This document shows, piece by piece, positions 1 to 24,378 of a DNA stretch of 33,033 nt. Position numbers and translations under genes: made by a program. Each line of letters begins with the position of its first letter. The stretch's first letter is position 1. The notes beneath the pieces are model-generated. The model was not told the DNA's origin, did not search any database, and saw nothing but the letters and a program-made list of their open reading frames with translations. Origin of the DNA: Candidatus Angelobacter sp. Gp1-AA117 (lineage in GTDB: Bacteria; Acidobacteriota; Terriglobia; Terriglobales; Acidobacteriaceae); assembly GCA_003223515.1 (NCBI GenBank), contig QHVI01000061.1, forward strand, positions 1-33,033, in the 5' to 3' direction.

Positions 1-138
1 TGTTTGCCTTCCTCACAACATTGCAAGATTCTGCACCGCAAGTCGTCCCCTAATGCTTTTGCCATCCTCTATGTTGTCGCAGGAGCTTCGCCGAACCTGA
101 CAATAGCATAACTTTAATCAGTACGCTATTAACTAAAA

Positions 139-147
139 TGGTATAAT
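139..147 (+). promoter_or_regulatory. Extended -10 promoter element upstream of pgl
   Basis: The sequence TGG-TATAAT is a perfect extended -10 (TGn followed by TATAAT). It would place transcription start near 154, about 35 nt before the pgl start codon. I see no convincing -35 hexamer at 16-18 bp, which is tolerated for extended -10 promoters. The predicted leader would begin inside the short repeat at 151-180. No GTGA-N6-TCAC palindrome lies here, so pgl is probably outside the regulon seen further right. This is a motif match only. Confidence 0.4.
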
Positions 148-150
148 TTC

Positions 151-180
151 CTCCGCGTTCTCCGCGGCCTCTCCGGTGAA
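151..180 (-). repeat. Divergent inverted copy of the dispersed 'ccgcagaggacgcagagg' repeat
   Basis: Read on the minus strand this stretch is ttcaccgg-agaggccgcg-gagaacgcgg-agg. It resembles the purine-rich block of the longer repeats at 1717-1790 and 4567-4633 (ttaaccgcagaggacgcaaagaacgcagagg type). It lies in the leader of pgl, so it would be transcribed. It is short and divergent, so common origin is likely but not certain. Confidence 0.4.
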
Positions 181-188
181 AAGGTTTT

Positions 189-926
189 ATGTCTACCCGT
201 GAAATAAACATCGCCTCAGATATCACAGCCCTGTCCCGCATGGGTGCCGATGAATTTGTTCGCCGTGCCAAAGAGAGCATCGCCGAGCACGGAATATTCA
301 CCGTCGCCCTCTCCGGAGGCTCAACCCCCCAGGGCGCTCACGCTCTGTTGGCAGAGTACAAGGATTTGCCCTGGAATAAAATCCACATCTTCTTTGGCGA
401 CGACCGCCACGTCCCCCCCGACGATAAAGACAGCAACTACCGCGCCGCTAAAGAATCACTGCTTTCGAAGATCAATATTCGTGCTGAAAACATTCACCGC
501 ATATACACCGAACTGGATGCCCAAACCGCCGCCCAGCAATACGAAGATGAATTGAAGAAATTCTTCCAACTTCCTGCAGGCCAGTGGCCCCGCTTTGATC
601 TCATCATGCTGGGCATGGGTCCCGATGGTCACACTGCTTCCCTTTTTCCGGGCACTGCTGCTTTGAATGAAAACTCCCGATGGGTAGTCGCCAACTGGGT
701 GGAGAAGCTCAACACCTGGCGCATTACCTTCACTTTTCCCCTGATCAACCACGCCGCCGAAATCCTCTACCTGGTGGCCGGCGACGAGAAGACCGATGTA
801 TTAAAAGACGTGCTCGAAAATCCAAACAGAAATCTTTATCCCTCTCAGCGAGTGCAACCCATCGATGGCAAAATGATCTGGGTCATCGAACACGGCGCCG
901 CGAAGCTGCTGACAAATCTCAAATGA
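189..926 (+). CDS. pgl: 6-phosphogluconolactonase
   Basis: This 245-aa protein should hydrolyse 6-phospho-D-glucono-1,5-lactone to 6-phosphogluconate, the second step of the oxidative pentose phosphate pathway, in the cytosol. Family signatures are visible: the phosphate-binding SGGSTP near residue 43, the FFGDDRHVPPDDKDSN segment near residue 80 (matching W/F-x-DER-x-VP...SN) and the LGMGPDGHTASLFPG motif near residue 152. Length is normal for the DevB/SOL family. The ATG at 189 is preceded by AAAAGG 4 nt upstream, a usable ribosome site. The gene stands alone, with an extended -10 upstream and no obvious terminator after its TGA. Glucosamine-6-phosphate deaminase is a distant relative, but the GxDGHTASLFPG motif favours Pgl. 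I am confident of the family. Confidence 0.93.
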   Translation: MSTREINIASDITALSRMGADEFVRRAKESIAEHGIFTVALSGGSTPQGAHALLAEYKDLPWNKIHIFFGDDRHVPPDDKDSNYRAAKESLLSKINIRAENIHRIYTELDAQTAAQQYEDELKKFFQLPAGQWPRFDLIMLGMGPDGHTASLFPGTAALNENSRWVVANWVEKLNTWRITFTFPLINHAAEILYLVAGDEKTDVLKDVLENPNRNLYPSQRVQPIDGKMIWVIEHGAAKLLTNLK

Positions 927-1135
927 TCAGTCAGCAGCAGTAAGGCTGTTGTCTTTAATTTTTCGCAATCGGCGTGGCGGGCTGCAAAGCCATAAAAACA
1001 TTGTCTGCAAATGCAAAGAAAGTATGGGCGTTCCTCAAAAGAGATCCGCGCAGCCGAGGGTGGCTCCGTTGGCTATCGCGGCAGGAATCCCGGCGGCTGC
1101 GGTCCATTCGATCTTTTTAGATGTTCCCGGGATAT

Positions 1136-1177
1136 GTGACCACCGTCACGGTTCAATCTGCGGTGCGGTAGTAAGGT
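1136..1177 (+). promoter_or_regulatory. CRP/FNR-type operator plus -10, upstream of the CBS gene
   Basis: A perfect palindrome GTGAC-CACC-GTCAC occupies 1136-1149. Exactly 22 bp later is TAAGGT (1172-1177), a plausible -10. This spacing puts the palindrome centre at -41.5 from a start near 1184, the class II CRP/FNR activation geometry. The resulting leader of about 17 nt contains the strong GGAGGAAG ribosome site of the next gene. The palindrome and spacing are seen directly; the regulator family is inferred. Confidence 0.65.
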
Positions 1178-1200
1178 GAACTGTACGTCTGGAGGAAGTC

Positions 1201-1677
1201 ATGAAAGTCCACGATGTAATGTTGAAGAAACCTGTTTACTGCACTCCGTCCGATGACATTGCTCTGGTCGCAGCAGCGCTCAACGATTACAAGACCAGCA
1301 TCATGCCGGTAACGGAACACCACCGGCTGCCTTCGAAACTGGTTGGCCTGGTGACGGCCTGGGACATCTGCGACAAAGTAGTGGCAAAGGCCAGAGATCC
1401 CTACGCCGTGAATGCAGGCGATTGCATGTCTATGCAATTCGAGTTCTGCGAGCCGGGAGATTCTATTGACCAGGCGCTTCTTAAGATGCGTGGGGCCGGA
1501 GTGTTGAGACTGCCAGTGACGAATCAAAAGGGAGAACTGGTCGGCACTATCTCCATGGGAGACATTATTCGACACCAGGCGGCAGACAGCAGAAAGCTCT
1601 TTGAAATAATGGCGGCAGTCTGCGTCAACGACGGCGCACCGGAACACATCGGCGAAGTAGTTGGGATGGCGGTATAG
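1201..1677 (+). CDS. Two-CBS-domain protein
   Basis: The 158-aa product is little more than a tandem pair of CBS domains (a Bateman module). CBS1 spans about residues 1-62, starting VHDVMLKKPVYCTPSDD and ending LVGLVTAWDIC. CBS2 spans about 72-125, CMSMQFEFCEPGDSIDQAL to LVGTISMGDII. Such modules bind adenosine nucleotides and usually act as energy or redox sensors; the partner is unknown here. No catalytic domain or membrane segment is fused. GGAGGAAG lies 2-9 nt before the ATG and fixes the start. The gene follows an operator of the regulon. Stand-alone CBS proteins of this kind (for example mycobacterial Hrp1) are known hypoxia-regulon members, which fits its neighbours. The precise role is unknown. 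Confidence 0.9.
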   Translation: MKVHDVMLKKPVYCTPSDDIALVAAALNDYKTSIMPVTEHHRLPSKLVGLVTAWDICDKVVAKARDPYAVNAGDCMSMQFEFCEPGDSIDQALLKMRGAGVLRLPVTNQKGELVGTISMGDIIRHQAADSRKLFEIMAAVCVNDGAPEHIGEVVGMAV

Positions 1678-1716
1678 CAGTCAGCATTCAGCCTTTTGAC
1701 ATTCAGGAGGGCGTTT

Positions 1717-1790
1717 AACCACAGCGTAGCGGAGGCCCAACCGAAAAACCTTTAACCGCAGAGGACGCAAAGAACGCAGAGGACGCAAAA
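1717..1790 (+). repeat. Dispersed intergenic repeat, copy A
   Basis: This copy contains aaccacagcgtagcggaggc, a short spacer, then ttaaccgcagaggacgcaaa and a second agaacgcagaggacgc block. The same two-part arrangement recurs at 4567-4633. It sits between the CBS gene and mgtA and contains no open frame of note. The 1678-1953 interval holds nothing else I can identify. Confidence 0.75.
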
Positions 1791-1953
1791 ATAGTTTATG
1801 TGTATTTGCTCCGGCACTGTTTTTATATCGGTCCCGATGACCTGATTCCTGAAATCTCCCGACCCTCCATTTGAAGCCACAGACAATAACACAATCAATG
1901 AGCGTCATACTCTTTCACGTTCATCATGCTCAAGCTGGGCAAAGCTTGCGGCA

Positions 1954-1997
1954 GTGACAGCCGTCACGCAACAAAATTTCTTCACTTTGCATACAAT
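1954..1997 (+). promoter_or_regulatory. CRP/FNR-type operator plus -10, upstream of mgtA
   Basis: The palindrome GTGAC-AGCC-GTCAC lies at 1954-1967. TACAAT, a good -10, lies at 1992-1997 after 24 bp, 2 bp more than at most other sites; a poorer hexamer (cataca) starts at exactly 22 bp. Transcription would begin near 2002-2004, a few bases before the ATG at 2007. The element lies inside the longest open frame (from 1926), which argues that the frame's first 27 codons are not translated. Confidence 0.6.
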
Positions 1998-2006
1998 GAT
2001 GCTGCA

Positions 2007-4505
2007 ATGGAGCCAGTATTGAATTCAGCGAACATCGCTCCGGCAACTCAGTTGCCCTCCGGATTGGCTTCACAGGAAGCCGAAAAGCGGCTGAAGCAGT
2101 TCGGGCCCAATGATCCCGCTCCATCGCACCAACGATCTATTGTTGGCGAGTTGCTGCTGCTGTTTGTCAACCCACTGGTCATTATTCTTCTACTGGCAGC
2201 CGTTATCTCGGGGTTCATCGGCCAGTTGCTGGATGCCGGGATCATCGTAGTGATGGTGCTGGTTGGAGTGGCGATCAACTTCTACCAAACCTACCGCTCG
2301 AAGGTTGCCATTGAGAGTTTGCGGGCGCGGGTTGCGCCCACAACAAATGTATTGCGGGATGGCCAGTGGCAGGAGATCAATCGCCGTGACGTTGTGCCCG
2401 GAGACATCGTCCGGCTTTCGGCTGGAGACCTGGTCCCAGCGGATGCCCGGCTGCTCAACGCCCGCGACCTTTACGTGCAGCAGGCCGCGCTCACAGGCGA
2501 ATCTCTTCCAGCAGAAAAGCAGGCGAATGGCAACGCCGCACCCAACACCCCGGATTCCCTCAACATGGTTTTTCTAGGCACATCTGTAGTAAGCGGGACC
2601 GCGGTCGCAGAGGTGGTGGCCACCGGCAGGCAAACGGCATTTGGAGATATCGCCGAGCGTCTGGCGGCGCGTCCGGAAGAGACTGCATTCGACCGTGGCT
2701 TGCGCCAGTTCGGCGGGCTCATCATGCGCGCTGTTATATTCCTGGTGCTTTTCCTGCTGGTGGTAAGCATTGTTCTGCATCATGACACGCTGGAGTCTAT
2801 GCTATTTGCAATCGCGCTGGCCGTGGGCCTGACGCCCGAGTTCCTGCCCATGATCACCTCGGTCACTCTGTCCCGAGGTGCGGTGGTCATGGCGCGCAAG
2901 AAGGCGATCGTCAAACATCTCTCCGCGATCCAGAACTTCGGCAGTATTGACGTGCTGTGCAGCGACAAAACCGGAACCATTACCACGGGAAACATGGCGC
3001 TCGACAGCTCTCTGGACCCCTTTGGACACCCGGCAGAGAGGCCGTTCGAGCTGGCTTACATCAACAGCAAATTCGAGACAGGCATTCGCAGTCCTCTGGA
3101 CGCCGCTATTCTCAAACGGCCATCACCTGCGGCAGATGGTTTTGAGAAGCGTGACGAAATTCCCTTCGATTTTGAGCGCCGTCGTCTTTCGATTGTGGTG
3201 GAACACTCTTCGCAGTGGACGCTCATCACCAAAGGCTCCCCTGAAGGAATTTTCCCGCTGCTCTCCGCTTATGAAATCAATGGAGAGACACGCGCCATCG
3301 ATGCAGAGGCTCTCGCCTCGTTTCACAAAATCTATGAAGATCTAAGCCGTCAGGGGTTTCGCTTGCTGGCCGTGGCCTATGCCAAGGTGTCTCCGCAGCG
3401 GGCTTATTCCGTTGCCGATGAGCATGACCTGACGCTGGCGGGCTTTCTGGGATTCGGTGATCCTCCGCTGGCCGATGCCGGCGAGGCGATTGCAGCCTTG
3501 AAGCGTGATGGCGTCGAGGTAAAAATCATCACCGGTGACAGCGATTTGGTCAGCGGCAGAATCTGCGGCCAGGTGGGCATCGATCCCGGAAAGATTGTTC
3601 TCGGCTCAGAACTCGACAAGATGAGCGATGGGGCCCTGGGCCATGTTGCCGAACAGGCAACCGTATTTGCGCGAGTTTCTCCGGCACAGAAAAACCGCAT
3701 CATCATGGCGCTCAAACACCGCAGCCACGTGGTCGGTTACATGGGCGACGGCATCAATGACGCCCCTTCGCTGCATGCCGCCGACGTGGGCATCTCGGTT
3801 TCCACAGCCGTGGATGTGGCCCGCGATGCCGCGGATATCATCCTGCTCGAGCCGGGTTTGCGGGTCCTGCACGATGGAATTCTGGAAGGCCGCAAGGCCT
3901 TTGGCAACGTGATGAAGTACCTGCTGATGGGCACCAGTTCCAACTTTGGCAATATGCTCAGCATGGCGGGAGCATCTTTGTTTCTCCCGTTTCTTCCCAT
4001 GCTTCCCACACAGATCCTGCTGAACAATTTTCTCTATGACATGGCGCAGATCACAATTCCCAGTGACCGCGTGGATGAGGCATACGTCCGCGCTCCTCAG
4101 CAGTGGGACATCCGGCTGATTCGCAATTTCATGCTTTTCATCGGCCCCATCAGCTCGATCTATGACTTCCTGACCTTTTATGTGCTCCTTTATCTGCTGC
4201 ATGCCGGCCAGCAGGAATTCCATACCGGATGGTTCGTGGAATCGCTGGCCACGCAGACGCTGGTACTGTTCGTGATCCGTACTGCGGGAAATCCGCTTCG
4301 CAGCCGTCCCAGCCCGGCGCTCACCGCCACGACTCTGGCCATTGTCTTGATCGGAGTCTTGCTGCCTTTTACGCCTATCGCTGCCGATCTGGGGTTCACG
4401 CCCTTGCCGCCGATCTATTTTGCGTTTCTGGCAGGAGCAACGGTTACCTATCTTCTGCTCGTTGAGGTTGGAAAGCGCTTCCTGATGCGGAGAACGCTGC
4501 GCTGA
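2007..4505 (+). CDS. mgtA: MgtA/MgtB-type magnesium-translocating P-type ATPase
   Basis: This 832-aa protein is a P3B ATPase of the inner membrane, expected to import Mg2+ using ATP. Visible elements in order are: an N-terminal cation-ATPase domain (LASQEAEKRLKQFGPNDPA), TM1-2, the actuator TGES near residue 161, the ion-binding TPEFLPMI helix near 276, the phosphorylated DKTGT aspartate near 319, the hinge GDGINDAP near 580, and a six-helix C-terminal block. The NFGNMLSMAGASLFLPFLPM segment is very typical of MgtA rather than of Ca2+ or K+ pumps. It is somewhat shorter than enteric MgtA (about 900 aa). An upstream in-frame start at 1926 is possible, but that stretch carries the operator and -10, so I prefer the ATG at 2007, giving a leaderless or nearly leaderless mRNA. 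No mgtL-like leader is seen. Confidence 0.92.
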   Translation: MEPVLNSANIAPATQLPSGLASQEAEKRLKQFGPNDPAPSHQRSIVGELLLLFVNPLVIILLLAAVISGFIGQLLDAGIIVVMVLVGVAINFYQTYRSKVAIESLRARVAPTTNVLRDGQWQEINRRDVVPGDIVRLSAGDLVPADARLLNARDLYVQQAALTGESLPAEKQANGNAAPNTPDSLNMVFLGTSVVSGTAVAEVVATGRQTAFGDIAERLAARPEETAFDRGLRQFGGLIMRAVIFLVLFLLVVSIVLHHDTLESMLFAIALAVGLTPEFLPMITSVTLSRGAVVMARKKAIVKHLSAIQNFGSIDVLCSDKTGTITTGNMALDSSLDPFGHPAERPFELAYINSKFETGIRSPLDAAILKRPSPAADGFEKRDEIPFDFERRRLSIVVEHSSQWTLITKGSPEGIFPLLSAYEINGETRAIDAEALASFHKIYEDLSRQGFRLLAVAYAKVSPQRAYSVADEHDLTLAGFLGFGDPPLADAGEAIAALKRDGVEVKIITGDSDLVSGRICGQVGIDPGKIVLGSELDKMSDGALGHVAEQATVFARVSPAQKNRIIMALKHRSHVVGYMGDGINDAPSLHAADVGISVSTAVDVARDAADIILLEPGLRVLHDGILEGRKAFGNVMKYLLMGTSSNFGNMLSMAGASLFLPFLPMLPTQILLNNFLYDMAQITIPSDRVDEAYVRAPQQWDIRLIRNFMLFIGPISSIYDFLTFYVLLYLLHAGQQEFHTGWFVESLATQTLVLFVIRTAGNPLRSRPSPALTATTLAIVLIGVLLPFTPIAADLGFTPLPPIYFAFLAGATVTYLLLVEVGKRFLMRRTLR

Positions 4506-4566
4506 TTCCCTGCTTAGGAACTTCCTGCAATTCCGGTGCTGGCCAGCGTGGTTTAGATAAGAATTG

Positions 4567-4633
4567 AACCGCAGCGTAGCGAAGCCACAACCAAAAGCTT
4601 TCACCGCAGAGGGCGCAGAGGACGCAGAGGTAA
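4567..4633 (+). repeat. Dispersed intergenic repeat, copy B
   Basis: It starts aaccgcagcgtagcgaagcc and continues with ttcaccgcagagggcgcaga and gacgcagaggtaa. It matches copy A (1717-1790) in both halves and in orientation, each copy lying shortly upstream or downstream of a regulon gene. It does not encode a protein. Its function, if any, is unknown. Confidence 0.75.
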
Positions 4634-4896
4634 CAAAAGTGTTGATAATGTATTGAATTTGGCGGTGTGTTGCTCCCTATGGACCGCACGCGCCCTTGGC
4701 TCCCGGGAGAATTCGTCGCAAGCAGAGAAGAATTCGAACGTTAGCAATACAAAGGCACGAAGTATTGCGAAGGATTTCTGATCAAAGCCTTATGAAACTT
4801 TTCGCGATTAGCCTTACCGCTTTGCGGGGATTGCTCTAGCGGTGTACCGCCAGTGCGCGGTCCAATTTGGCATCTCTTCAGCAGACGCAGATGACA

Positions 4897-4910
4897 GTGA
4901 CGCACGTCAC
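4897..4910. promoter_or_regulatory. Orphan GTGA-N6-TCAC palindrome
   Basis: The sequence is GTGAC-GCAC-GTCAC, a perfect 5+5 palindrome like the gene-linked copies. On the plus strand the hexamer 22 bp downstream is ccgggc, and on the minus strand gatgcc; neither resembles a -10. No gene starts nearby in either direction. It may be a decayed promoter, a decoy, or the promoter of an unrecognised short transcript. Confidence 0.4.
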
Positions 4911-4970
4911 CACGCAATCGGGTTAGAAATGGCCGGGCAACAGAGCGTCGCCTGACTTCCTCTTGGTTGA

Positions 4971-5258
4971 TCAAGCCGCTGTTTTGCTGGTCTTCACATT
5001 CGCTTGCGGGTGGTGCATGCGATAGAAGAGATTATGAATAGGAACGAAGAGCAATGAGATATACGCTCCATAGATAAAGCTCTCCAGCGCTCCCACAACG
5101 AATCGCACGGGCGTAATCCACCTGAATCCGGGCAAGAAGGTTTCCAGTAGCCGGATGTACGCAGGATTGCTCGCAGCAAGGTTCCAGGCCACGAACAGGC
5201 AGAATGTGAGCAGGAAGAAGGAGCCGAGCGACCAGAACCAGACTTTGATCTTCAACAT
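4971..5258 (-). CDS. Small two-helix membrane protein, DUF5676-like
   Basis: The 95-aa product has two predicted membrane helices, about residues 8-28 (FWSLGSFFLLTFCLFVAWNL) and 54-75 (FVVGALESFIYGAYISLLFV), with a short polar C-terminus. The layout, in particular the G-x-x-x-x-F-x-x-G-x-x-x region of the second helix, resembles DUF5676 membrane proteins, whose function is unknown. AGGAG lies 9-10 nt before the ATG, supporting the start. It is divergent from the next gene, and an operator on its side of the shared promoter region suggests co-regulation. The family call is from memory of the pattern and is moderate. Confidence 0.7.
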   Translation of the reverse strand: MLKIKVWFWSLGSFFLLTFCLFVAWNLAASNPAYIRLLETFLPGFRWITPVRFVVGALESFIYGAYISLLFVPIHNLFYRMHHPQANVKTSKTAA

Positions 5259-5305
5259 GATGCGTCTCCTGGAACCAGCATGCCCTGTTCGCCTGACCGG
5301 GCGCG

Positions 5306-5319
5306 GTGATACACGTCAC
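5306..5319 (-). promoter_or_regulatory. CRP/FNR-type operator for the minus-strand membrane protein gene
   Basis: The core is GTGA-TACACG-TCAC. Read towards the minus-strand gene, the nearest hexamer to the expected 22-bp position is gcatgc (5283-5278) or, one base further, catgct, a weak -10. Predicted transcription start is near 5271, giving a leader of about 13 nt that includes the gene's ribosome site. It is one of a pair of palindromes whose centres are 29 bp apart in this divergent region. Confidence 0.5.
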
Positions 5320-5334
5320 AATGCACTGTGCTGC

Positions 5335-5376
5335 GTGATGCCGGTCACGTACCGGTATGCGCCTTGGCCCCATAAT
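5335..5376 (+). promoter_or_regulatory. CRP/FNR-type operator plus -10 for the gene at 5390
   Basis: The palindrome GTGA-TGCCGG-TCAC occupies 5335-5348. CATAAT (5371-5376), five of six matches to the -10 consensus, begins exactly 22 bp after it. Transcription would start near 5383, seven bases before the ATG at 5390. This makes the earlier in-frame start at 5357, which lies upstream of the -10, unlikely. Confidence 0.65.
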
Positions 5377-5389
5377 CTATGCTGGTGAA

Positions 5390-6229
5390 ATGTTTTTGGC
5401 AGAGTTAACACAGAACAGAGTGGCTTATTTGCGCCGGACCACGGAGAGACTTAGCGGATGTCTTTTGTTTGCTGTCATGGCAGCAAATCATCCAGTGATG
5501 GTGCAGACGAATGCTCCCGATCACAGGCCGAATACCTCGAGTACGGCGGCAACGCCCTGTGTGGAACCTGCTCCCCTCTTTTCTGCCGCAGACTATGAGG
5601 GTCCGTTGAACAAGGCGGTGACATATTTTTCCCGCAAGCTGGAAATCAAGACTGTCCACGAGCCCCGTTCTGGCAAAGGACACAAGCTTTGCAGCCTTAG
5701 CTCCGCAGACAAATTTCGCCTGTCCTTCAACAATACGGTTGAGCCGGTAACGTTTGTGGGGGCGGCATTCAATGCCGGCCTGGATCAGGCGCAGAACAAT
5801 GACCCTTCTTTCGGCCAGGGAATGGCCGGTTACGGTAAACACTATGCTGCGGCGCTGGCGGACAGCGCTTCTGAAGACTTCTTTCACACCTTTGCTTTCC
5901 CGGTTATCTTCCGTCAGGATCCCCGCTACTATCGAAAGTTTGAAGGACCCATAAGCCACAGGCTCGGCCATGCTCTGTCCCACATTTTTGTGGCCCGCAG
6001 CGATTCCGGCAAACCCATGCTTAATTTTTCTGAATGGCTCGGCACCACTGCTTCCACGGCGCTGGCTAATACCTACCATCCGGGAAACCGCCGCGGAATC
6101 GGTCCCGCGGCATCACGCATCGCTGTAAGTATTGGCACGGACGCAGGCTTTGACGTATTGCGCGAGTTCTGGCCGGAACTGGTGCATACCTTCAGGCTGC
6201 CATTCCGGGTGCGCGGAAATCATCCGTAA
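5390..6229 (+). CDS. Conserved protein of unknown function, probably exported
   Basis: I do not recognise a named function for this 279-aa protein. After a basic N-terminus (YLRRTTERLSG) comes a short hydrophobic stretch that could be a weak signal peptide, then a low-complexity Thr/Pro/Ala linker to about residue 55. The conserved-looking body contains PLNKAVTYFSRKLEIKTV, GYGKHYAAALADSASEDFF, PVIFRQDPRYYRK, a serine-rich ARSDSG turn and LNFSEWLGT. This pattern of G-Y-G-K-x-Y plus QDPRYYR recurs, from memory, in acidobacterial hypothetical proteins. I prefer the ATG at 5390 because the promoter -10 at 5371-5376 excludes the earlier start at 5357; the ATG at 5477 would remove the hydrophobic stretch. 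It is divergent from the small membrane protein and shares its regulatory region. Confidence 0.75.
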   Translation: MFLAELTQNRVAYLRRTTERLSGCLLFAVMAANHPVMVQTNAPDHRPNTSSTAATPCVEPAPLFSAADYEGPLNKAVTYFSRKLEIKTVHEPRSGKGHKLCSLSSADKFRLSFNNTVEPVTFVGAAFNAGLDQAQNNDPSFGQGMAGYGKHYAAALADSASEDFFHTFAFPVIFRQDPRYYRKFEGPISHRLGHALSHIFVARSDSGKPMLNFSEWLGTTASTALANTYHPGNRRGIGPAASRIAVSIGTDAGFDVLREFWPELVHTFRLPFRVRGNHP

Positions 6230-6253
6230 TCCACTGTCTCGCCTGTATACCAT

Positions 6254-6295
6254 GTGACCCGTGTCACAGCACTGGCGCCGACAAAGGGGTCAACT
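6254..6295 (+). promoter_or_regulatory. CRP/FNR-type operator plus -10 for the adh-pfk operon
   Basis: A perfect palindrome GTGAC-CCGT-GTCAC lies at 6254-6267. The hexamer 22 bp further, tcaact (6290-6295), is a weak -10, as expected for an activator-dependent promoter. Start of transcription would be near 6302, leaving AGAAGG as a ribosome site for the ATG at 6316. Confidence 0.6.
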
Positions 6296-6315
6296 AAAGG
6301 GTAGAAGGATGGTGG

Positions 6316-7509
6316 ATGATGGCAACAGCAGAGATAACAGCAAACAATGTTGGCGTGACTGCAAAGACGGCAACCACAACCATGAAAGCTTTGGTGTTTC
6401 GAGGAGCAAATAAAATCGCGGTTGAGGAAGTTCCAATCCCGCGGCCGAAATATGGTGAAGCCGTGATGCGCGTTACGTTGACCACGATTTGCGGCACTGA
6501 CGTGCACATTTTGAAAGGCGAGTACCCGGTGAAACCGGGCCTGATCATCGGGCATGAAGCTGTGGGAGTGATTCACGAGCTTGGGCCGGGAGTTACCGGC
6601 TACACGAAAGGCGACCGCGTTCTCATAGGCGCTATCACGCCCTGCGGCCAGTGTAATGCCTGCCTGAGCGGCGACCTGTCACAGTGCGGCGGCCCAATCG
6701 GCGGATGGAAATTCGGCAACACTATCGACGGCTGCCAGGCTGAGTATGTGCTGGTTCCCAATGCTGAGGCAAACCTGGCGAAGGTCCCCGAACATCTGCG
6801 TGACGAAGAAGTGGTGCTGCTGGCAGACATTGCTTCCACCGGCTTTTCTGCATCAGAAAGCGCGCCGGTAAAGATAGGCGACACCGTCGCCATTTTCGCG
6901 CAAGGCCCGATTGGGCTGTGCGCAACCGCGGGTGCCCGCTTGCATGGCGCAAACTGCATCTACGTGGTGGATCCAAATCCCGGACGGCTGGCAGAGGCAA
7001 AAAAGATGGGCGCTGACGTTGTGTTAAGCAGTAATGAGATTGATCCAGTGAAGGAGATCCTGCGGCTGACGAATGGCCGTGGTGTGGACGTGGCCATTGA
7101 AGCCCTTGGCCAGCAAGCCACGTTTGAAAATGCACTGCGTGTCCTGCGGCCTGGTGGAACCCTTTCCAGCCTAGGAGTGTATTCCGGCAAGCTTTCCATA
7201 CCGCTGGAAGTGTTTGCCGCCGGACTGGGCGATCACAAGATTGTGACTACACTCTGTCCGGGAGGCAAAGAGCGTATGCGCCGGCTCATGGAGCTGGTTG
7301 CGCACCGTCGTGTAGACTTGACCCCGCTGCTCACCCATACGTTTCCGCTGGAGCGCATCACAGAAGCCTACGAGCTTTTTGCTGCGCAACGCGATGGAGT
7401 GCTGAAGGTGGCGATCCGAGTGCAAGGCAGAATTCCCGAAGAGCCTGGCCCAAATCGCGGACGTGAGGCGGCTTTACTATCGGGAAACAGAAACAATGAA
7501 CTCTGCTAA
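6316..7509 (+). CDS. Zinc-dependent medium-chain alcohol dehydrogenase
   Basis: This 397-aa protein belongs to the zinc MDR family and most resembles bacterial secondary-alcohol or threonine-dehydrogenase-like enzymes using NAD(P). Visible are the catalytic zinc ligands in TTICGTDVH (near residue 60) and GHEAVGVI (near 80), the four-cysteine structural-zinc lobe CGQCNACLSGDLSQC (near 113-127), and the Rossmann glycine run AQGPIGLCA (near 197). Two extensions flank the usual 350-aa core: about 22 Ala/Thr-rich residues before MKALVF, and a tail after KVAIRV. AGAAGG precedes the ATG at 6316, and nothing precedes the inner ATG at 6382, so I keep the long form. Its last 14 bases overlap the start of pfk. 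The substrate is uncertain; a fermentative role would suit the regulon. Confidence 0.88.
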   Translation: MMATAEITANNVGVTAKTATTTMKALVFRGANKIAVEEVPIPRPKYGEAVMRVTLTTICGTDVHILKGEYPVKPGLIIGHEAVGVIHELGPGVTGYTKGDRVLIGAITPCGQCNACLSGDLSQCGGPIGGWKFGNTIDGCQAEYVLVPNAEANLAKVPEHLRDEEVVLLADIASTGFSASESAPVKIGDTVAIFAQGPIGLCATAGARLHGANCIYVVDPNPGRLAEAKKMGADVVLSSNEIDPVKEILRLTNGRGVDVAIEALGQQATFENALRVLRPGGTLSSLGVYSGKLSIPLEVFAAGLGDHKIVTTLCPGGKERMRRLMELVAHRRVDLTPLLTHTFPLERITEAYELFAAQRDGVLKVAIRVQGRIPEEPGPNRGREAALLSGNRNNELC

Positions 7510-8584
7510 AACGATCGGCATTTTAACCGGCGGCGGTGACTGTCCCGGATTGAATGCCGTGATTCGGGCAGTGGTAAAGTCGGCCATCCTGCAATATGGA
7601 TGGCGCGTGATCGGGATCGAAGACAGCTTCGATGGCCTGATCTGGCCAAACCGGTATCGCGAACTCCAATTAGAGGACGTCAGCGGAATCCTGGCTCGCG
7701 GCGGAACGATCCTCGGGACAACCAATCGCGGCAATCCCCTGGCTTACCGGGTCCCGGAAAACGGCAAAGAAAATGTCTGTGATTTCAGTGACCGGGTCAT
7801 CCGGAATGCCCATGAGCTTGGTCTGGATGGTCTCATTGTCGTCGGTGGCGATGGGACCATGCGGATCGCTCTCGAACTATACCGCAAAGGGCTCAACCTC
7901 GTAGGTGTTCCCAAAACCATTGATAATGATCTCAACGCAACCGAAATCAGTATTGGGTTCGATACCGCTCTTCACACTGCTTCTGAGGCCATCGACAAAG
8001 TACACAGCTCGGCAGAGTCACACCATCGAATCATGGTCATCGAAGTCATGGGTAGGGAGGCAGGCTGGATTGCCCTTGAGGCTGGCCTGGCCTCAGGCGC
8101 CGACGCCATCCTTATACCTGAAATCACTTTTGATCTGGAGAAAATCTGCACCTGTGTACGACAGCGTGAGAAAGCGGGGAAGACGTTCACTATCGTGGTA
8201 GTTGCTGAAGGAATCGATATTCCAGCAGCGGGCGGAAGTGGCTCGAGTACCGGAAAGCGTCTGCACCCGCAGCCTGGCATGGCTGCAAATTGGGTGGCTG
8301 AAGGCCTGGCGCGCTGTACGGGGCGTGAAACCCGCGTGGCAGTGCTGGGCCATATTCAGCGCGGAGGAGCGCCTTCTCCGTTCGACCGCATTCTAGCCAC
8401 GCGTTTTGGCGCAGCGGCAATTGACCTGGTTGCCCAGGGAGAGGTTGGCAAGATGGTATGCCTGACCCATGGCGCAATCGGACAGGCAGATATTGCCGAG
8501 GCTGTGCGCATCACCCGCTGCGTTGACCCGCATGGAGAACTAGTCCGCATAGCCAGAGCCACAGGTATTTGCTTCGGTGATTAA
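7496..8584 (+). CDS. pfkA: 6-phosphofructokinase, group A
   Basis: The 362-aa protein phosphorylates fructose-6-phosphate to the 1,6-bisphosphate in glycolysis. Motifs in order are GILTGGGDCPGLNAVIRA at the N-terminus, GGTILGTTNRGNP, VVGGDGTM, PKTIDNDL, the active-site region EVMGREAGWIAL, and GHIQRGGAPSPFDR. The glycine of GGDGT is the ATP-type residue, whereas the lysine of PKTIDND is usually seen in pyrophosphate-dependent enzymes; such G/K mixtures are known in ATP-using members. I predict ATP but this is not certain. The ATG at 7496 overlaps the end of adh, suggesting translational coupling in one operon. The open frame extends upstream to 7463, but those residues (MRRLYYRETET) do not belong to the family. 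Confidence 0.93.
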   Translation: MNSAKTIGILTGGGDCPGLNAVIRAVVKSAILQYGWRVIGIEDSFDGLIWPNRYRELQLEDVSGILARGGTILGTTNRGNPLAYRVPENGKENVCDFSDRVIRNAHELGLDGLIVVGGDGTMRIALELYRKGLNLVGVPKTIDNDLNATEISIGFDTALHTASEAIDKVHSSAESHHRIMVIEVMGREAGWIALEAGLASGADAILIPEITFDLEKICTCVRQREKAGKTFTIVVVAEGIDIPAAGGSGSSTGKRLHPQPGMAANWVAEGLARCTGRETRVAVLGHIQRGGAPSPFDRILATRFGAAAIDLVAQGEVGKMVCLTHGAIGQADIAEAVRITRCVDPHGELVRIARATGICFGD

Positions 8585-8685
8585 ACCTTTTCAATACAGC
8601 CCAAGCCACAAACAAAATCTTCCCGCCGATCAAATGGAGGAGCGCTCATTGAGCGTGTTCGCTGGATTCAGAACAGCACGAGGAA

Positions 8686-8727
8686 GTGATAAGCATCACA
8701 TCTTTGAAGCCAACTGATGCTTACAAT
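8686..8727 (+). promoter_or_regulatory. CRP/FNR-type operator plus -10 for the DUF5335-like gene
   Basis: GTGAT-AAGC-ATCAC is a perfect palindrome at 8686-8699. TACAAT (8722-8727), five of six -10 matches, starts exactly 22 bp after it. Transcription is predicted at about 8734, the A of the ATG, implying a leaderless mRNA. It is the clearest example of the promoter type in this window. Confidence 0.7.
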
Positions 8728-8733
8728 GAATCC

Positions 8734-9165
8734 ATGAAAACTGACACATATACCACGGCTGCCTCTCCACTGGACAGTGTTTCCAGTGAGAAGATCTCAC
8801 CGGAGAAATGGCCCGCTTTCTGCAAAGCATTCACACAGCAATCCCATGGAATCCTGGTCAGTGTAGAACGCCGCGATGAGGACACCGGCAGCGAAACTGT
8901 AGCAGAGGCGCACGGCCTCGCGTTTGAAGAACTCTCGAGCCACATCCTGAAGAATGGAGTGGCTGCTGTTACGGTTGTGATGGAGGGCAAGCCCCGCAAG
9001 ATAAGGCTGGATATGACCGGCCCTACCGAGCTTCGGGGGTATCGCAATCCCCAAGGCTGGCCAGTGCGCCTGGAGATTTCATCGGCGTCCGGAGCGCGAA
9101 TCCTGCATTTTGCTGGAGAAATGCGCACCAGCCGTGGCGCCAGCGCCAACTCCTGGGGAGAGTAA
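8734..9165 (+). CDS. DUF5335-like protein
   Basis: The 143-aa soluble protein has a variable, Ser/Thr-rich N-terminus (about 25 residues) followed by KWPAFCKAFTQQSHGILVSVE, a long helix-strand pattern, and a C-terminal LEISSASGARILHFAGE. The opening W-x-x-F-x-x-x-F-x-x-Q-x-x-G-x-L-V-x-V pattern and overall length fit DUF5335, a family of unknown function. The frame extends upstream to a GTG at 8686, but that codon is the first triplet of the operator palindrome, so the ATG at 8734 is the better start. No ribosome site precedes it, consistent with leaderless translation. It lies between pfkA and usp, each with its own operator or operon, in the same orientation. Confidence 0.75.
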   Translation: MKTDTYTTAASPLDSVSSEKISPEKWPAFCKAFTQQSHGILVSVERRDEDTGSETVAEAHGLAFEELSSHILKNGVAAVTVVMEGKPRKIRLDMTGPTELRGYRNPQGWPVRLEISSASGARILHFAGEMRTSRGASANSWGE

Positions 9166-9174
9166 AGCAAGCTT

Positions 9175-9216
9175 GTGATGCTTGTCACAGCGCAGTTAAG
9201 CTGCCCGGGGTTGAAT
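9175..9216 (+). promoter_or_regulatory. CRP/FNR-type operator plus -10 for usp
   Basis: The palindrome GTGA-TGCTTG-TCAC lies at 9175-9188, 10 bp after the preceding stop codon. TTGAAT (9211-9216), four of six -10 matches, begins 22 bp after it. Transcription would start near 9223, which excludes the ATG at 9222 and leaves AAAGGAGA as the ribosome site for the ATG at 9243. Confidence 0.65.
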
Positions 9217-9242
9217 AGAGTATGGAAAAAAGGAGATGCACT

Positions 9243-9704
9243 ATGAAAGTCCTGCTGGCAATCGATGATTCAACCTGTTCCAGTTCAGCCGTGGAAAGTC
9301 TCATCAAACAATCCAGGCCCGCGGAAACCGAAGTGCTGGTTTTGCACGCTATTGAATCAGGTAAACTGATGCCTATTTCCTATAGTTATGGCATGGGACC
9401 CATATTTCCCCAGGATTACACTGCAATCGTCCAGCAATGGCGCAGTGAAGGTGAAGCGCTGGCCGCTCGCGCGGTACAACGGCTGGAAGCAGCCGGTTTC
9501 AAAGTTTCCAGCCAGGTGGAAGAAGGCGATGCTCGGGACGTGATTCTCAACTGTGCGCAAAGCTGGCACCCAGACCTGATCTTGATGGGTTCGCATGGAA
9601 GAAAGGGGCTGGATCGATTCATGCTGGGCAGCGTTTCGGAAGCCATCACGCGTCATGCCCCATGTTCAGTAGAGGTAGTGCGGACGCCGGCAGTGGCGGC
9701 TTGA
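9243..9704 (+). CDS. Universal stress protein, single Usp domain, ATP-binding type
   Basis: This 153-aa protein is a single Usp domain. It begins MKVLLAIDDSTCSSSAVE, the canonical first strand with the Asp that contacts adenine. It ends with GSHGRKGLDRFMLGSVSEAI, which fits the G-2x-G-9x-G-S ATP-binding signature, so it should bind ATP and dimerise in the cytosol. AAAGGAGA lies 8 nt before the ATG at 9243, while the ATG at 9222 has none and would lie at the predicted transcription start. Single-domain Usps are common members of hypoxia and stationary-phase regulons, matching the operator upstream. Downstream DNA turns into gene remnants with no terminator visible. Confidence 0.92.
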   Translation: MKVLLAIDDSTCSSSAVESLIKQSRPAETEVLVLHAIESGKLMPISYSYGMGPIFPQDYTAIVQQWRSEGEALAARAVQRLEAAGFKVSSQVEEGDARDVILNCAQSWHPDLILMGSHGRKGLDRFMLGSVSEAITRHAPCSVEVVRTPAVAA

Positions 9705-9845
9705 GTAAACTCCGTAGAAGAAGATTATCCAATAACGTTGGGCGCAGACAGCGCACCGAAAGTCATGGCTCACTGACACATTGCAAACCAAACTACAGCT
9801 TGGTGTTCAGGATGGAACTGCAATTGCCTGGAAGCTTCTCCCCGC

Positions 9846-10022
9846 CTATTCACGCAATGACGCTTCCACAATGTATCGCTTGGGAGCGTTGCCGATGTAA
9901 TGGAACGGATAGCAGGTGACCAGCGTGAGTGATGGTTGGGACCTGGCATCCAGTGCGCTTACATTATCAGGCGTTGTGATTGCTATCTGGTCCACTACGT
10001 AGAATTTACTGCTGGTTGGCAT
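9846..10022 (-). pseudogene. Sortase C-terminal remnant
   Basis: On the minus strand the frame ending at 9846 reads SKFYVVDQIAITTPDNVSAL, then LTLVTCYPFHYIGNAPKRYIV and EASLRE before a stop. The TLVTC-YPF-x-YIGxAPKR pattern is the catalytic-cysteine region of sortases, as in the class with TLTTCYPF...GSAPKRF. Only about 58 residues remain. The catalytic His and upstream beta-barrel are missing, and no ribosome site precedes the Met at 10022. It abuts an oppositely oriented transporter remnant at about 10044. I read it as the surviving 3' end of a sortase gene broken by a rearrangement. The motif is strong; pseudogene status is an inference. Confidence 0.7.
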
Positions 10023-10043
10023 GTGCTCCCCATGGACGCCGTG

Positions 10044-10553
10044 AGGTGGTCTGAACTCCGCACTCGTATTACCTCAACCATAACTACAAATGTTTACGGT
10101 TGCTTTGTGGTGGGCGCTCTCCAGGGTACGCTTACCAGTCTGAGCTTCTGGGCCTTGGGAATCGATTCACCAGTATTGTGGGGCGCGGTTACGGGGGTGT
10201 TCTCGCTGGTTCCCATCCTTGGAAGTTCCATCGTCTGGCTACCCGCCTCGGTCGCGCTTCTGCTTACTGGCCATTTTATAAAATTCGTAGTCCTGCTGGC
10301 TTTGGGAGCGACTGTGATTGGGACGGTTGATAATGTTGTGCGTCCAGTCATCATTCATAAAAGCCTGCATCTTCATCCCATTCTGGCCTTCTTCGCTCTT
10401 GTGGGTGGCGTGCAGTTGTTTGGCGTGGTTGGATTGATTGTGGGGCCGGTGATTTTGTCTGTCACCATTGCGTTGCTCGCCATGCTGGAGGAAGACCTGA
10501 GCGATACCAAGAGAATTGCAATCAAAGCTTCAGCAACCGCGCAGACAACGTGA
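10044..10553 (+). pseudogene. AI-2E/PerM-family transporter, 3' remnant
   Basis: The reading frame from about 10044 to the stop at 10553 gives TNVYGCFVVGALQGTLTSL, FWALGIDSPVLWGAVTGVFS, VPILGSSIVWLPASVALLL, GTVDNVVRPVIIHKSLHLHP and GLIVGPVILSV. This is the characteristic C-terminal half of the AI-2 exporter (TqsA/PerM) family, with four to five membrane helices. Family members have about 350 residues; about 170 remain here. The open frame runs back to 9936, but those codons are antisense to the sortase remnant and unrelated to the family. Loss of the N-terminal helices should abolish function. It may still be transcribed. Confidence 0.75.
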
Positions 10554-10620
10554 GTGCATCTTCTCTTGATGGCTAAATCAGATTTGCCCAGCTACTGCAC
10601 CAAGCGGTTGATCCTTGCAG

Positions 10621-10851
10621 CGCGCGGTGTACTTCAAACCAGACAACTATCGGGCATTTTTACTCTTAGGTGAAGGCATACTATGGCGCTCACCGGTGGG
10701 ACGACGCTGCATGGGCTTTTAGCGATGCACCGAGCTGAGTCCTCAGAGTGAGGAAGCGCTGCATTATCCGGGAATGACATATCGCCATGCCGGACGCCGT
10801 GCCGAAGCGATCAAGCTCTATAAGCGCAGATGGAATTTCTTCACTTTGTGA
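10621..10851 (+). pseudogene. TPR-protein remnant with compensating frameshifts
   Basis: Three adjoining frames read as one TPR protein: RAVYFKPDNYRAFLLLGE (10621-10674), then one base shifted AYYGAHRWDDAAWAFSDAPS (10676-10735), then back in the first frame LSPQSEEALHYPGMTYRHAG and RRAEAIKLYKR until TGA at 10849. The Y-x-A-x-x-x-L-G-E, W-D-D-A-x-x-A-F and A-E-A-I-x-L-Y spacing is typical of tetratricopeptide repeats. The middle stretch in the original frame contains a TAG stop, so no intact protein is made. There is no start codon context. One indel near 10675 and a compensating one near 10735 explain the pattern. Confidence 0.6.
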
Positions 10852-10868
10852 AACGTCAAATCACAAAG
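10844..10868. repeat. Perfect 8-bp inverted repeat (hairpin)
   Basis: CTTTGTGA (10844-10851) pairs with TCACAAAG (10861-10868) across a 9-nt loop. The half sites resemble the GTGA/TCAC palindromes nearby but are spaced 9 rather than 6 bp apart, so they do not fit the operator. It has no T-tract and is not an intrinsic terminator. It overlaps the end of the TPR remnant and lies 4 bp before the operator-like site at 10873. Confidence 0.5.
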
Positions 10869-10872
10869 CGCG

Positions 10873-10914
10873 GTGATGGCGCTCACATCCACTGATACAT
10901 GGTCTTCTTATTCT
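10873..10914 (+). promoter_or_regulatory. Orphan GTGA-N6-TCAC palindrome with a -10-like hexamer
   Basis: GTGA-TGGCGC-TCAC lies at 10873-10886, and TATTCT (10909-10914) starts 22 bp after it, matching the promoter layout of the island. No recognisable gene follows on the plus strand: short frames after 10921 stop quickly, and the next plausible genes are on the minus strand. It could drive a non-coding RNA or be the surviving promoter of a lost regulon member. Confidence 0.4.
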
Positions 10915-11059
10915 GTAGTTGAAAGTATTGTCTTGAAAAATCCGCCTGTCCTGCTGCAACCAGCATCTTGACTGCTGGACATCAGGTGGTCCTTTTCCGC
11001 ATCAACCAGGGTGGGGCTGAAACATTTCACAGACACGTGAAGAGACCGTCAGCTAAGTT

Positions 11060-11299
11060 TCACGAGGTGCTGACAAAGTGCCCTGTCAAGAAGCGCATAG
11101 TCACCATGTCGTACTCGCGCCTGTGTCCGCACTTGTAACAGGTGCGGGTCGTTTTGCCGGCGACAGTCCTTGGGAATGAATAACTGTAATCGCTATGGAT
11201 GCACTTGGGCATGGCCCGCGAGCACAGCCATGTGGCAGCGCCCAACACCGTTCGCACCACTCCAGCGGTGAACACCAAAGTCCTGGTAATCAAACGCAT
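11060..11299 (-). CDS. Small zinc-ribbon protein of unknown function
   Basis: The 79-aa ORF has a moderately hydrophobic N-terminus (LVFTAGVVRTVLGAATWL) and then a half-ribbon: MPKCIHSDYSYSF, a basic linker, and TCYKCGHRREYDMVTMRFL. The single Cys, the C-x-x-C-G and the following hydrophobic-YD-x-x-x-M pattern resemble small zinc-binding proteins that I associate with acidobacterial genomes. No good ribosome site precedes the ATG at 11299, and the region around it is full of remnants, so it could be decaying. Function unknown; domain assignment from the cysteine pattern only. Confidence 0.45.
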   Translation of the reverse strand: MRLITRTLVFTAGVVRTVLGAATWLCSRAMPKCIHSDYSYSFPRTVAGKTTRTCYKCGHRREYDMVTMRFLTGHFVSTS

Positions 11300-11351
11300 G
11301 GCGCGCCGATGAAGTGGAAATGATAAAACCCAGGCACACGGCCGCTATTCA

Positions 11352-11549
11352 TCATGCCGACCGCAGCTTTCCACACTGTAAGCAACGTGATTCAGAGCAG
11401 GGTGTAATGGAGCCGCAGGCCCGGCATATCGTTTGCGATCGATACCCTGGCACCTGGACCTGTACTGCTCCGCTTCTATACAGGCGAAAGATGGAAAACA
11501 CTGAGACCAAAGCGAAAAAAACGCCAACACAAATACTGGTTACATCCAT
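11352..11549 (-). CDS. Membrane-anchored small zinc-ribbon protein
   Basis: The 65-aa product has one predicted membrane helix (about residues 6-24, ICVGVFFALVSVFSIFRLY), a short linker, and a complete four-cysteine ribbon CRACGSITPCSESRCLQCGK near the C-terminus. AAAGGTG lies 6 nt before the ATG at 11549, which supports a real start. Opposite-strand frames across it have no domain signature. It is the second small zinc-ribbon ORF in a row on this strand. A membrane-tethered zinc ribbon might bind nucleic acid or another protein, but I cannot name a function. Confidence 0.5.
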   Translation of the reverse strand: MDVTSICVGVFFALVSVFSIFRLYRSGAVQVQVPGYRSQTICRACGSITPCSESRCLQCGKLRSA

Positions 11550-11996
11550 AAAACGGCACCTTTCTAATGTGACGGTCCCCCAAATACGACCCCTTAAGGC
11601 GGAGTGGCAAAATAGAGAGACGTGCAGGCTGAGGGTCCGCTATTACATCGGTTGCGCAGGAAGCCCGCCGCGAGAGTGGAGCAATCAATCCAGAGGTACG
11701 ACGGAAGAGATGCGTGCGACTTCCTTAAGGTTAGTCGTCCACCTCTGTCAAAGCAACTTATATTTTCCAGGGAAGCTGGAACGCATGTTATAGCAGCATA
11801 TAGTGCACACTTCTGGTTTCCAGTCCGGTGAATGAAAGGTCAGAAAAATAGATCGGGGAGGAGAAATCGCACGCGGCATCCCGTAACAGGATGGGACGAC
11901 CAATTTCAACAGGCCCTCAGATTGAGGCCGCGCGTGAAATTCCCAGACACAGGACCGCCCGGAACGCGGTGCGCAAATCCGGGCAGTGATCCTGGT
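11550..11996. other. Gene-poor stretch with a possible helix-turn-helix remnant
   Basis: Around 11709-11790 the plus strand reads ACDFLKVSRPPLSKQL followed by AGTHV. This recalls the excisionase-type HTH of antitoxins (A-A-x-x-L-x-V-S-R-P-x-L-x-K-L-L...GTHRR). It lacks the rest of the domain, has an internal deletion and no credible start, so I treat it as a doubtful fragment. The remainder shows nothing I can support. Confidence 0.25.
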
Positions 11997-12200
11997 CTAC
12001 AGGACTTTTACGTTCTCCGCCTGCCAGCCTTTTGGGCCGCGGGTGACGGTGAATTCTACGGCTTGGCCTTCCGGCAAGCTGCGGAATCCGCTGGCTTGGA
12101 TGGCGGAGAAATGCACAAATACATCTCCATCGCCACTGTTACGGGTAATAAATCCAAATCCTTTCGCGTCGTTAAACCACTTCACGATTCCTTGTTCCAT
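11997..12200 (-). CDS. Cold-shock protein, CspA family
   Basis: The 67-aa protein is a single cold-shock domain, an OB-fold RNA chaperone that melts mRNA structure. RNP1 (KGFGFIT, residues 13-19) and RNP2 (VFVHFSAI, residues 27-34) are intact, and the length is normal. AAAGGAAAA precedes the ATG at 12200. A TATAAT on the minus strand at 12331-12326 suggests a leader of about 120 nt, in line with the long regulatory leaders of csp genes. It is transcribed away from the short ORF at 12460. Family assignment is secure; which paralogue it is cannot be said. Confidence 0.95.
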
Positions 12201-12325
12201 GTTATTTTCCTTTGTTTCTTGGATGTTCCTGCTGAGAAGATTGACTGGTTTCTGTGAGGTGGGTTGTCGCTATTAAGGCTGGACCGGCTCGCCGACCGCT
12301 GGTGAATCACTTAACGGGAAATTTG

Positions 12326-24340: not shown

Positions 24341-24378
24341 GATTTCAGCTCTCGCTGTGGGTTGAAATGATTTCTGAA

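Follow-up and report, generated by a model that had tools for sequence, protein, structure and literature searches.

Nine palindromes as operator-like sites of a gene switch shared across a lineage of soil Acidobacteriota, with a cysteine-bearing CRP/FNR-type protein as the probable regulator

The window analyzed here, a 33,033-nucleotide stretch of Candidatus Angelobacter sp. Gp1-AA117 (contig QHVI01000061.1, positions 1 to 33,033), carries nine GTGA-N6-TCAC palindromes that, judged from sequence, are operator-like and belong to a gene switch found throughout a lineage of soil Acidobacteriota. With a probability of about three in four, we read them as operators of one trans-acting CRP/FNR activator, likeliest of a cysteine-bearing type called the A1 family below, which would govern an oxygen-limitation or energy-stress program. 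A CRP/FNR-family regulator encoded outside the window had been put forward in the original prediction, which was made from the window alone, and it is still the best reading of both the local and the genome-wide regulon.

All nine palindromes lie within 9.75 kb, exactly where and with the sequences that the original prediction gave, and the other 22 kb of the window holds no copy. Dinucleotide shuffles averaged 0.38 sites, with a maximum of 3 and none of 100 reaching nine, which bears out the claimed non-randomness. Eight sites extend to GTGAY-N4-RTCAC, the exception being that at 10873, and all nine fall outside the genes called by a simple codon-usage caller whose starts are approximate. Across the 6.48-Mb genome (206 contigs) the extended motif occurs 85 times, against 15 for a reversed control pattern; eight copies in 9.75 kb compare with a Poisson mean of 0.13 (P ~2e-12, for a stretch that was chosen for its sites). 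The enrichment extends to 61 related genomes (2256 versus 341). Sites of mixed Y/R type number 39 in the own genome.

Equal density in coding DNA, named in the original prediction as what would count against it, was not found. Of 75 GTGA-N6-TCAC sites in 405 kb of own-genome sequence (41 stretches, the window and 40 others), 55 are intergenic, compared with 23% expected (p ~7e-20), and 20 are coding. Of the 40, 38 had been chosen for holding a listed site, wherever placed, and the remaining two, on contigs 58 and 1, for other CRP/FNR genes; the intergenic share was 39/49 in the first 21 stretches and 16/26 in the last 20. The first 21 stretches (267 kb) held 2, 0 and 1 scrambled palindromes with AGTG, GTAG and GAGT arms, respectively, and six FNR-type palindromes, one of them intergenic. 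The proposed kinship to both CRP and FNR sites held for CRP and failed for FNR. The own genome shows no enrichment of TTGAY-N4-RTCAA (17 versus 13), so that the sites are CRP-like rather than FNR-like and an FNR-type box is rejected as the active sequence there. Around 39 own intergenic sites, T precedes the arms in 25 and A follows them in 30; only these adjoining bases are clearly preferred, so the sites are not part of a longer repeat. When 1536 gapped palindromes were ranked over 80 regulator-centered loci (1.08 Mb), GTGA-N6-TCAC came first, with 213 intergenic copies against 3.5 expected from base composition, and 11 coding copies. These loci are orthologous neighborhoods, the best 80 of 378 relatives from a family scan of genome contigs, and their titles read Acidobacteriota/Terriglobia, apart from one Ignavibacteria (L157) and one Thermoanaerobaculia (L123).

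The position of the palindromes relative to promoters and start codons is also informative. In 44 own-genome flanks, defined as sites facing a gene start within 260 bp, a TANNNT box occurs 15 times at a distance of 20–24 bp to the palindrome, while the remaining 55 gaps tested yield 24 in all. This recurring −10-like box suggests class II activator geometry in the own genome. The palindrome center lies 41.5–64.5 nt from the start codon in 16 of these flanks, and at 8686 and several other places the distance is 41.5–44.5 nt, as would be expected of leaderless or near-leaderless messages with a class II site at −41.5. Among 121 unambiguous sites in the regulator-centered loci of relatives, TANNNT is commonest at gaps 22–23 (5 and 8) and also recurs at gaps 4 and 11 (4 and 5), in sets dominated by homologous promoters.

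Many promoters of the lineage carry a third half-site. The second-ranked of the 1536 palindromes in the 80 loci is TCAC-N8-GTGA, the mark expected of a neighboring dimer site 22 bp away, and 130 of 448 site flanks have a GTGA at gap 8, against a mean of 4 over gaps. The start codon is typically ~79 nt away in promoters with a downstream half-site (median of 40) and 41.5–50.5 nt away in 14 of 31 with an upstream one. These distances would fit dimers at −63.5 and −41.5, and the −10 data agree only in part. Half-site forms precede 15 of 25 downstream gene clusters, with underlying counts that are non-independent. On contig 13 of G000, two perfect palindromes 22 bp apart (38017 and 38039; L023:12018 and 12040) occupy a divergent promoter region; their distances are 42.5 and 64.5 nt to the minus-strand start and 60.5 and 82.5 nt to the plus-strand start of a gene that by eye encodes a universal stress protein (Usp)-like product.

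The check for CRP/FNR paralogues that the original prediction had proposed returned six own-genome proteins with HTH_Crp_2. Two of them adjoin in a cluster on contig 64 and carry an N-terminal C-x2-C-x8-C triad, a further cysteine in the beta-roll and a recognition helix reading SRETVSR or TRETVTR. The most likely reader of the sites, by its sequence features, is the subgroup of one of these, L042 (the A1 family), and/or its neighboring paralogue. Cys13, Cys16, Cys25 and Cys64, together with R204-E205-T206-V207-x-R209, are invariant in 30 of 30 orthologues from related genomes. Of 115 full-length copies from among the best relatives, 101 of them distinct, 112 carry the triad together with Cys64, two lack only Cys64 and one lacks only the triad. 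The helix is CRP-like, G-[TS]-[STA]-R-E-T-V-[ST]-R. The triad is gone from more distant homologues, among them the own paralogue L016.

L042 belongs to the CRP/FNR superfamily, with PF00027 at 69.6 and PF13545 at 66 bits, both over the curated cut-offs, while no NCBIfam model reaches its cut-off on it; the best is CRP (61.8 versus 266), and Fnr stands at 47.9 versus 228. It is not FNR proper: in an alignment with FNR and CRP, the fourth invariant cysteine, Cys64, falls on AIRSG of FNR, and the column of FNR C122 is not conserved; moreover, the window half-sites are GTGA instead of TTGA. A cAMP-CRP is disfavored too, given its score and pocket residues that are not kept in the alignment. Placement within the superfamily, also relative to HcpR, DNR and NnrR, draws on Pfam, NCBIfam and a search of solved structures. 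The fold model of L042 has a mean pLDDT (predicted local distance difference test) of 82.6 and a pTM (predicted template modeling score) of 0.64, with low confidence for the N-terminus that holds the first cysteines. Among the 50 Foldseek matches listed, GlxR/CRP-type structures come first, with TM scores mostly 0.7–0.8, and an FNR structure stands at row 50. The cysteine arrangement suggests a cysteine-bound Fe–S cluster or another redox switch, and the regulator is probably a cysteine-bearing CRP/FNR-type sensor of low oxygen or redox state. An Fe–S cluster is not assured, because the family is nearer CRP/GlxR and its fourth cysteine lies off the FNR C122 place.

Regulator and operator occur together across genomes. 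A site lies 61–81 nt before the regulator start in eight of nine genus members, in the upstream stretch of 18 of 30 regulator orthologues and within 250 bp upstream in 88 of 115 regulator copies. In 61 genomes, with regulator presence defined as a match of at least 150 bits and this cut-off fixed before operator scoring, the three-half-site operator is found in 33 of 36 genomes with the regulator and 0 of 25 without (33/3/0/25); weaker homologues occur in further genomes, so that 48 of the 61 have a match at E up to 1e-20. In family f1 no three-half-site operator occurs in the four genomes that lack such a regulator, and outside f1 only the three with the regulator have any. Among 149 genomes sampled evenly across the phylum, with the regulator counted at E up to 1e-45 and four genomes common to both samples, the operator is present in 13 of 17 with the regulator against 10 of 132 without (13/4/10/122), and in 5 of 7 against 9 of 127 outside f1. 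Motif density follows regulator number over the 61 genomes (Spearman 0.69; 0.32 for the control pattern). Four genomes (G087, G162, G198 and G196) have a single site or one overlapping pair, which lies 27–90 bp from the regulator match and, in all but G087, 3' of it. G030 has the regulator and no three-half-site operator and is rich in TTGAY-N4-RTCAA (33 versus 6); another CRP/FNR system may dominate there.

A second protein accompanies part of the family. Directly downstream of the regulator in 15 of 97 distinct copies (those with at least 700 bp of downstream sequence) is an open reading frame (ORF) of 145–183 aa for a cNMP-like protein that lacks a helix-turn-helix (HTH). In 14 of the 15, GTGA-N6-TCAC stands between the two genes: ten of these sites are 42.5–56.5 nt before the called start, one is at 35.5 nt, and three overlap starts that were probably called too early. 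Our guess is that this HTH-less partner is an antagonist acting by heterodimer formation.

From the motif, its own-genome geometry, its co-distribution with the regulator, the cysteines, the helix and the gene content, all read directly in the sequences, we infer binding, activation, an Fe–S cluster and the signal as follows. A dimer would bind TGTGAY-N4-RTCACA through its CRP-like recognition helix, often centered near −41.5 so as to replace the −35 element in class II fashion. At many promoters of the lineage a second dimer site 22 bp off would leave a third recognizable half-site. The regulator would carry the redox switch, regulate its own gene and, in part of the lineage, be encoded just upstream of the HTH-less cNMP-domain partner. 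Its putative targets would include Usp, CBS, MgtA, alcohol dehydrogenase (ADH) and 6-phosphofructokinase (PFK) in the window and, elsewhere, pyruvate:ferredoxin oxidoreductase (PFOR), acyl-CoA ligase, cytochromes c, Rieske protein, a transporter beside RIC and further Usp. These predicted targets, mainly genes of fermentation, electron transfer and stress survival, resemble a hypoxia or dormancy regulon. Oxygen limitation or redox state is the signal we favor, and nitric oxide (NO) is its serious rival. Several uspA genes of Acidobacterium capsulatum are reported up at lowered O2, two of them 7- and 56-fold at 0.1 umol/l O2, in a paper whose main text contains neither 'Fnr' nor 'Crp' (PMC11636273).

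Several known systems come close to the switch. Escherichia coli CRP reads a TGTGA half-site with an R-E-x3-R recognition helix and has a class II site near −41.5. The system described here shares the half-site, the helix and the superfamily fold, appears from own-genome spacing to share the position near −41.5, and differs in the A1 family's missing cAMP-pocket residues, its extra N-terminal cysteines and its fermentative and stress targets. The DosR regulon of Mycobacterium tuberculosis includes CBS and PFK genes besides Usp; DosR is a LuxR-type response regulator with an unrelated operator, so that targets are alike while regulator type and operator differ. A hypoxia-induced Usp belongs to this dormancy regulon (PMC11841059). 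In the oxygen regulon of Myxococcus xanthus NmpRSTU, targets include Usp and a P-type ATPase, as here, and a CBS-domain protein is discussed as linked (PMC11841059); unlike the present regulator, an NtrC-like two-component system is described as being in control. FNR and ANR are [4Fe-4S] oxygen sensors with four essential cysteines and the FNR box TTGATNNNNATCAA (PMC4505428). The A1 family resembles them in its superfamily, its N-terminal cysteine triad with a distant fourth cysteine and its probable anaerobic-response targets. It differs in the C-x2-C-x8-C spacing, a fourth cysteine at 64 rather than at the C122 place, GTGA half-sites and a score under the Fnr cut-off. In Burkholderia cenocepacia, the low-oxygen-activated (lxa) locus reportedly clusters usp and metabolic genes that are switched on at low oxygen. 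The clustering is alike by this gene content; the phylum is different. The locus comprises 50 genes and is associated with persistence (PMC4505428).

New here are the candidate regulator subgroup and its unusual set of cysteines, an operator of three half-sites, the lineage-wide distribution and the HTH-less partner. No description of the motif or the subgroup was found in open-licence full texts (including PMC8407424, PMC12531629, PMC8510549 and PMC9603854), a scope outside which lie most subscription papers and all supplements. A bolder idea, which we hold to be doubtful, is that of an undescribed class of CRP/FNR sensors that replaces FNR in much of the lineage and combines a Cys13/Cys16/Cys25/Cys64 cluster, CRP-type specificity and a 22-bp tandem-dimer operator with an HTH-less paralogue that titrates the activator as a heterodimer or competes for the signal. 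Acidobacteriota are abundant in soils, and for one member the change in transcription on oxygen loss has been measured (PMC11636273). With a regulator candidate, an operator and a list of targets, all derived from sequence, this response becomes directly testable, and the three together offer a route to annotating hypoxia and dormancy genes in uncultured Acidobacteriota.

Other explanations differ in how much of this they would change. The same regulon and regulator could answer to NO, nitrosative stress or general thiol redox stress instead of oxygen limitation, which we consider unlikely but take seriously. A site stands before an MFS gene (NarK-like by eye), beside a RIC-type gene (ScdA_N plus Hemerythrin) and a molybdopterin-oxidoreductase-like gene (by eye), and cysteine switches of the superfamily can sense disulfide state, with CprK as precedent (PMC2610375). 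Most named targets are nevertheless fermentative or stress-survival genes (PFOR, ligase, ADH, Usp), and in Acidobacterium usp genes rise as O2 falls (PMC11636273). We give little credence to the proposal that another own paralogue, the cysteine-less L016 or L019 beside the RIC gene, is the main reader and the cysteine family one of several occupants. The helices of both (GTSRESVSR and GTVRELVSR) do have R-E-x3-R, and a site lies ~1.3 kb from L019. CRP-type sites are also common to many family members. Yet the three-half-site operator and the own-promoter sites track the cysteine family, and no site occurs around L016 in a 3.2-kb locus or a 13-kb stretch. The helices of two further paralogues, L020 and L021 (R-[SA]-R-V-[SN]-F-F), differ from that of the regulator and should not read GTGA. 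Catabolite-type control by a cAMP-dependent CRP is very improbable. The E. coli CRP site equals the consensus here, the predicted fold is nearest the cAMP-binding GlxR and M. tuberculosis CRP, and CRP is the best NCBIfam match of L042, though under its cut-off; against this, the A1 family is far below that cut-off, lacks the aligned cAMP-pocket residues (GELGLF...RSA versus LG-LTAVVGGTPYEA) and has N-terminal cysteines. That the palindromes arose by chance or as a dispersed repeat is hardly tenable: the reversed control predicts ~15 sites per genome and coding sequence holds its 20 of 75, but the shuffles, the intergenic bias, the −10 spacing and the first rank among 1536 palindromes oppose chance, and the narrow base preference opposes a repeat. 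For the site set as a whole, the shuffles, intergenic bias and ranking refute such an origin; the single sites 4897 and 10873 may be due to chance.

Several observations weigh against a single A1-family activator. Within f1, motif density and regulator number correlate only modestly (Spearman 0.36, p 0.03). The three-half-site form is missing in three of the 36 and four of the 17 regulator-bearing genomes and present in ten of the 132 without, homologues below 150 bits were counted as no regulator, and both genomes and orthologous loci are phylogenetically non-independent, the 80 loci being the best of 378. L016, without the cysteines, keeps nearly the same helix, and both sequence and fold place the family closer to CRP/GlxR than to FNR. 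The −10 spacing is uneven outside the own genome, in sets made up mostly of homologous promoters: where a half-site lies upstream (54 promoters), TANNNT is most frequent at gaps 17 (13) and 11 (8), with a total of four at 22 and 24, and where one lies downstream (63 promoters), it divides between gaps 23–24 (7) and 44–46 (5). Most pfkA orthologues examined outside the genus have no operator upstream, and mgtA has none directly upstream in any of six same-genus genomes, even with one mismatch allowed.

The conservation at orthologous promoters on which the original prediction had staked itself is accordingly mixed, with operators kept at the regulator gene, partly kept at pfkA and adh and absent directly before mgtA. 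Close orthologues of the window adh (71–74% identity) occur in five of the other 60 genomes, none of the same genus. Four of the five (in G009, G019, G030 and G051) are within 7 kb of a regulator gene, some have Usp, acyl-CoA-ligase and P-type ATPase genes as neighbors (by eye), and an operator heads the gene group in two. Window-type pfkA (67–68% identity) is present in two same-genus genomes, with operators upstream in both, shared with a divergent gene; in one of them, G001, the distance to a regulator paralogue is 1.9 kb. In three same-genus genomes whose PFK is more distant (~50% identity), no operator lies upstream. In two of the six same-genus genomes (G001 and G007), mgtA stands second in a usp-mgtA operon whose operator lies 63.5 nt ahead of the usp start, and in the other four no operator was found in ~1.5 kb upstream. 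Since operator presence is mixed at these orthologues, regulon membership appears to turn over between species.

Elsewhere in the own genome, sites gather around genes of similar kinds. A cluster of eight on contig 13 accompanies Usp, DUF308, P-type ATPase, rubrerythrin-like, lactate/malate dehydrogenase and acyl-CoA-ligase genes. Others are found with the two regulators, tandem Usp and the HTH-less cNMP protein (contig 64), with Rieske and cytochrome c (contig 60) and with a multiheme cytochrome (contig 38), and single sites precede PFOR (contig 18) and the MFS transporter beside RIC (contig 11). Several predicted targets have no family match. The features of the window and the two regulatory proteins are listed in Table 1.

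Table 1. Predicted operators, −10-like boxes and genes of the window, and own-genome regulatory proteins encoded elsewhere
Feature	Position	Strand	Remarks
Operator 1, GTGACCACCGTCAC	1136..1149	+	center 58.5 nt before CBS gene start
CBS-pair protein, 158 aa, predicted target	1201..1677	+	PF00571, two stretches
Operator 2, GTGACAGCCGTCAC	1954..1967	+	before mgtA
TACAAT, −10-like box	1992..1997	+	24 bp after operator 2
mgtA, Mg2+-type P-type ATPase	2007..4505	+	ATG 2007 by eye; gene caller chose 2019
Operator 3, GTGACGCACGTCAC	4897..4910	+	orphan; no convincing gene downstream
95-aa protein, membrane-like by eye	4971..5258	-	no family match; operator 5306 is 54.5 nt from start
Operator 4, GTGATACACGTCAC	5306..5319	+	divergent promoter region
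Operator 5, GTGATGCCGGTCAC	5335..5348	+	29 bp from operator 4
CATAAT, −10-like box	5371..5376	+	22 bp after operator 5
Protein of unknown family	5390..6229	+	ATG 5390 by eye; no Pfam/NCBIfam match for 5357-6229 frame
Operator 6, GTGACCCGTGTCAC	6254..6267	+	55.5 nt before adh
adh, zinc-type alcohol/threonine-dehydrogenase-like protein	6316..7509	+	PF08240, PF00107
pfkA, 6-phosphofructokinase	7496..8584	+	overlaps adh end; PF00365; NF002872 over cut-off
Operator 7, GTGATAAGCATCAC	8686..8699	+	center 41.5 nt from A of ATG 8734, leaderless-like
TACAAT, −10-like box	8722..8727	+	22 bp after operator 7
143-aa protein	8734..9165	+	no Pfam or NCBIfam match
Operator 8, GTGATGCTTGTCAC	9175..9188	+	61.5 nt before usp
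usp, universal stress protein	9243..9704	+	PF00582
Operator 9, GTGATGGCGCTCAC	10873..10886	+	no convincing gene follows; orphan, relic or chance
TATTCT, −10-like box	10909..10914	+	22 bp after operator 9
L042, candidate regulator (A1 family)	contig 64, 33916-34638		neighbor paralogue from contig 64, 37081 on
HTH-less cNMP-domain protein	L022:8709-9203		PF00027 only; site 42.5 nt before start

Of the gene identities proposed in the original prediction, mgtA is borne out by TIGR01524 (888.8 bits, cut-off 610.75), and the label 'DUF5335-like' for the gene at 8734–9165 found no backing in Pfam or NCBIfam. The starts of mgtA and of the gene of unknown family, read by eye, differ from the outermost ORF starts. 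Downstream of the orphan sites 4897 and 10873 no convincing product was found; the latter site lies in a gene-poor part of the window (9900–13100). Rfam returned no element at gathering score in window positions 1–13500. Short intergenic repeats of the type CGCAGAGGACGCA occur at 1740–1800 and 4590–4635, and similar words are found in L022 near 9220. An AI-2E transporter at 10032–10553 is without its N-terminal part (profile positions 184–323 of 327). Farther along, the window holds one ORF of 2877 aa (13328–21961), a long ORF that by eye includes a condensation-domain piece of nonribosomal peptide synthetase type (29222–33007) and a minus-strand gene group (22500–28433), by eye for sulfate assimilation, within which 25801–27528 is of the GTP-binding sulfate adenylyltransferase type.

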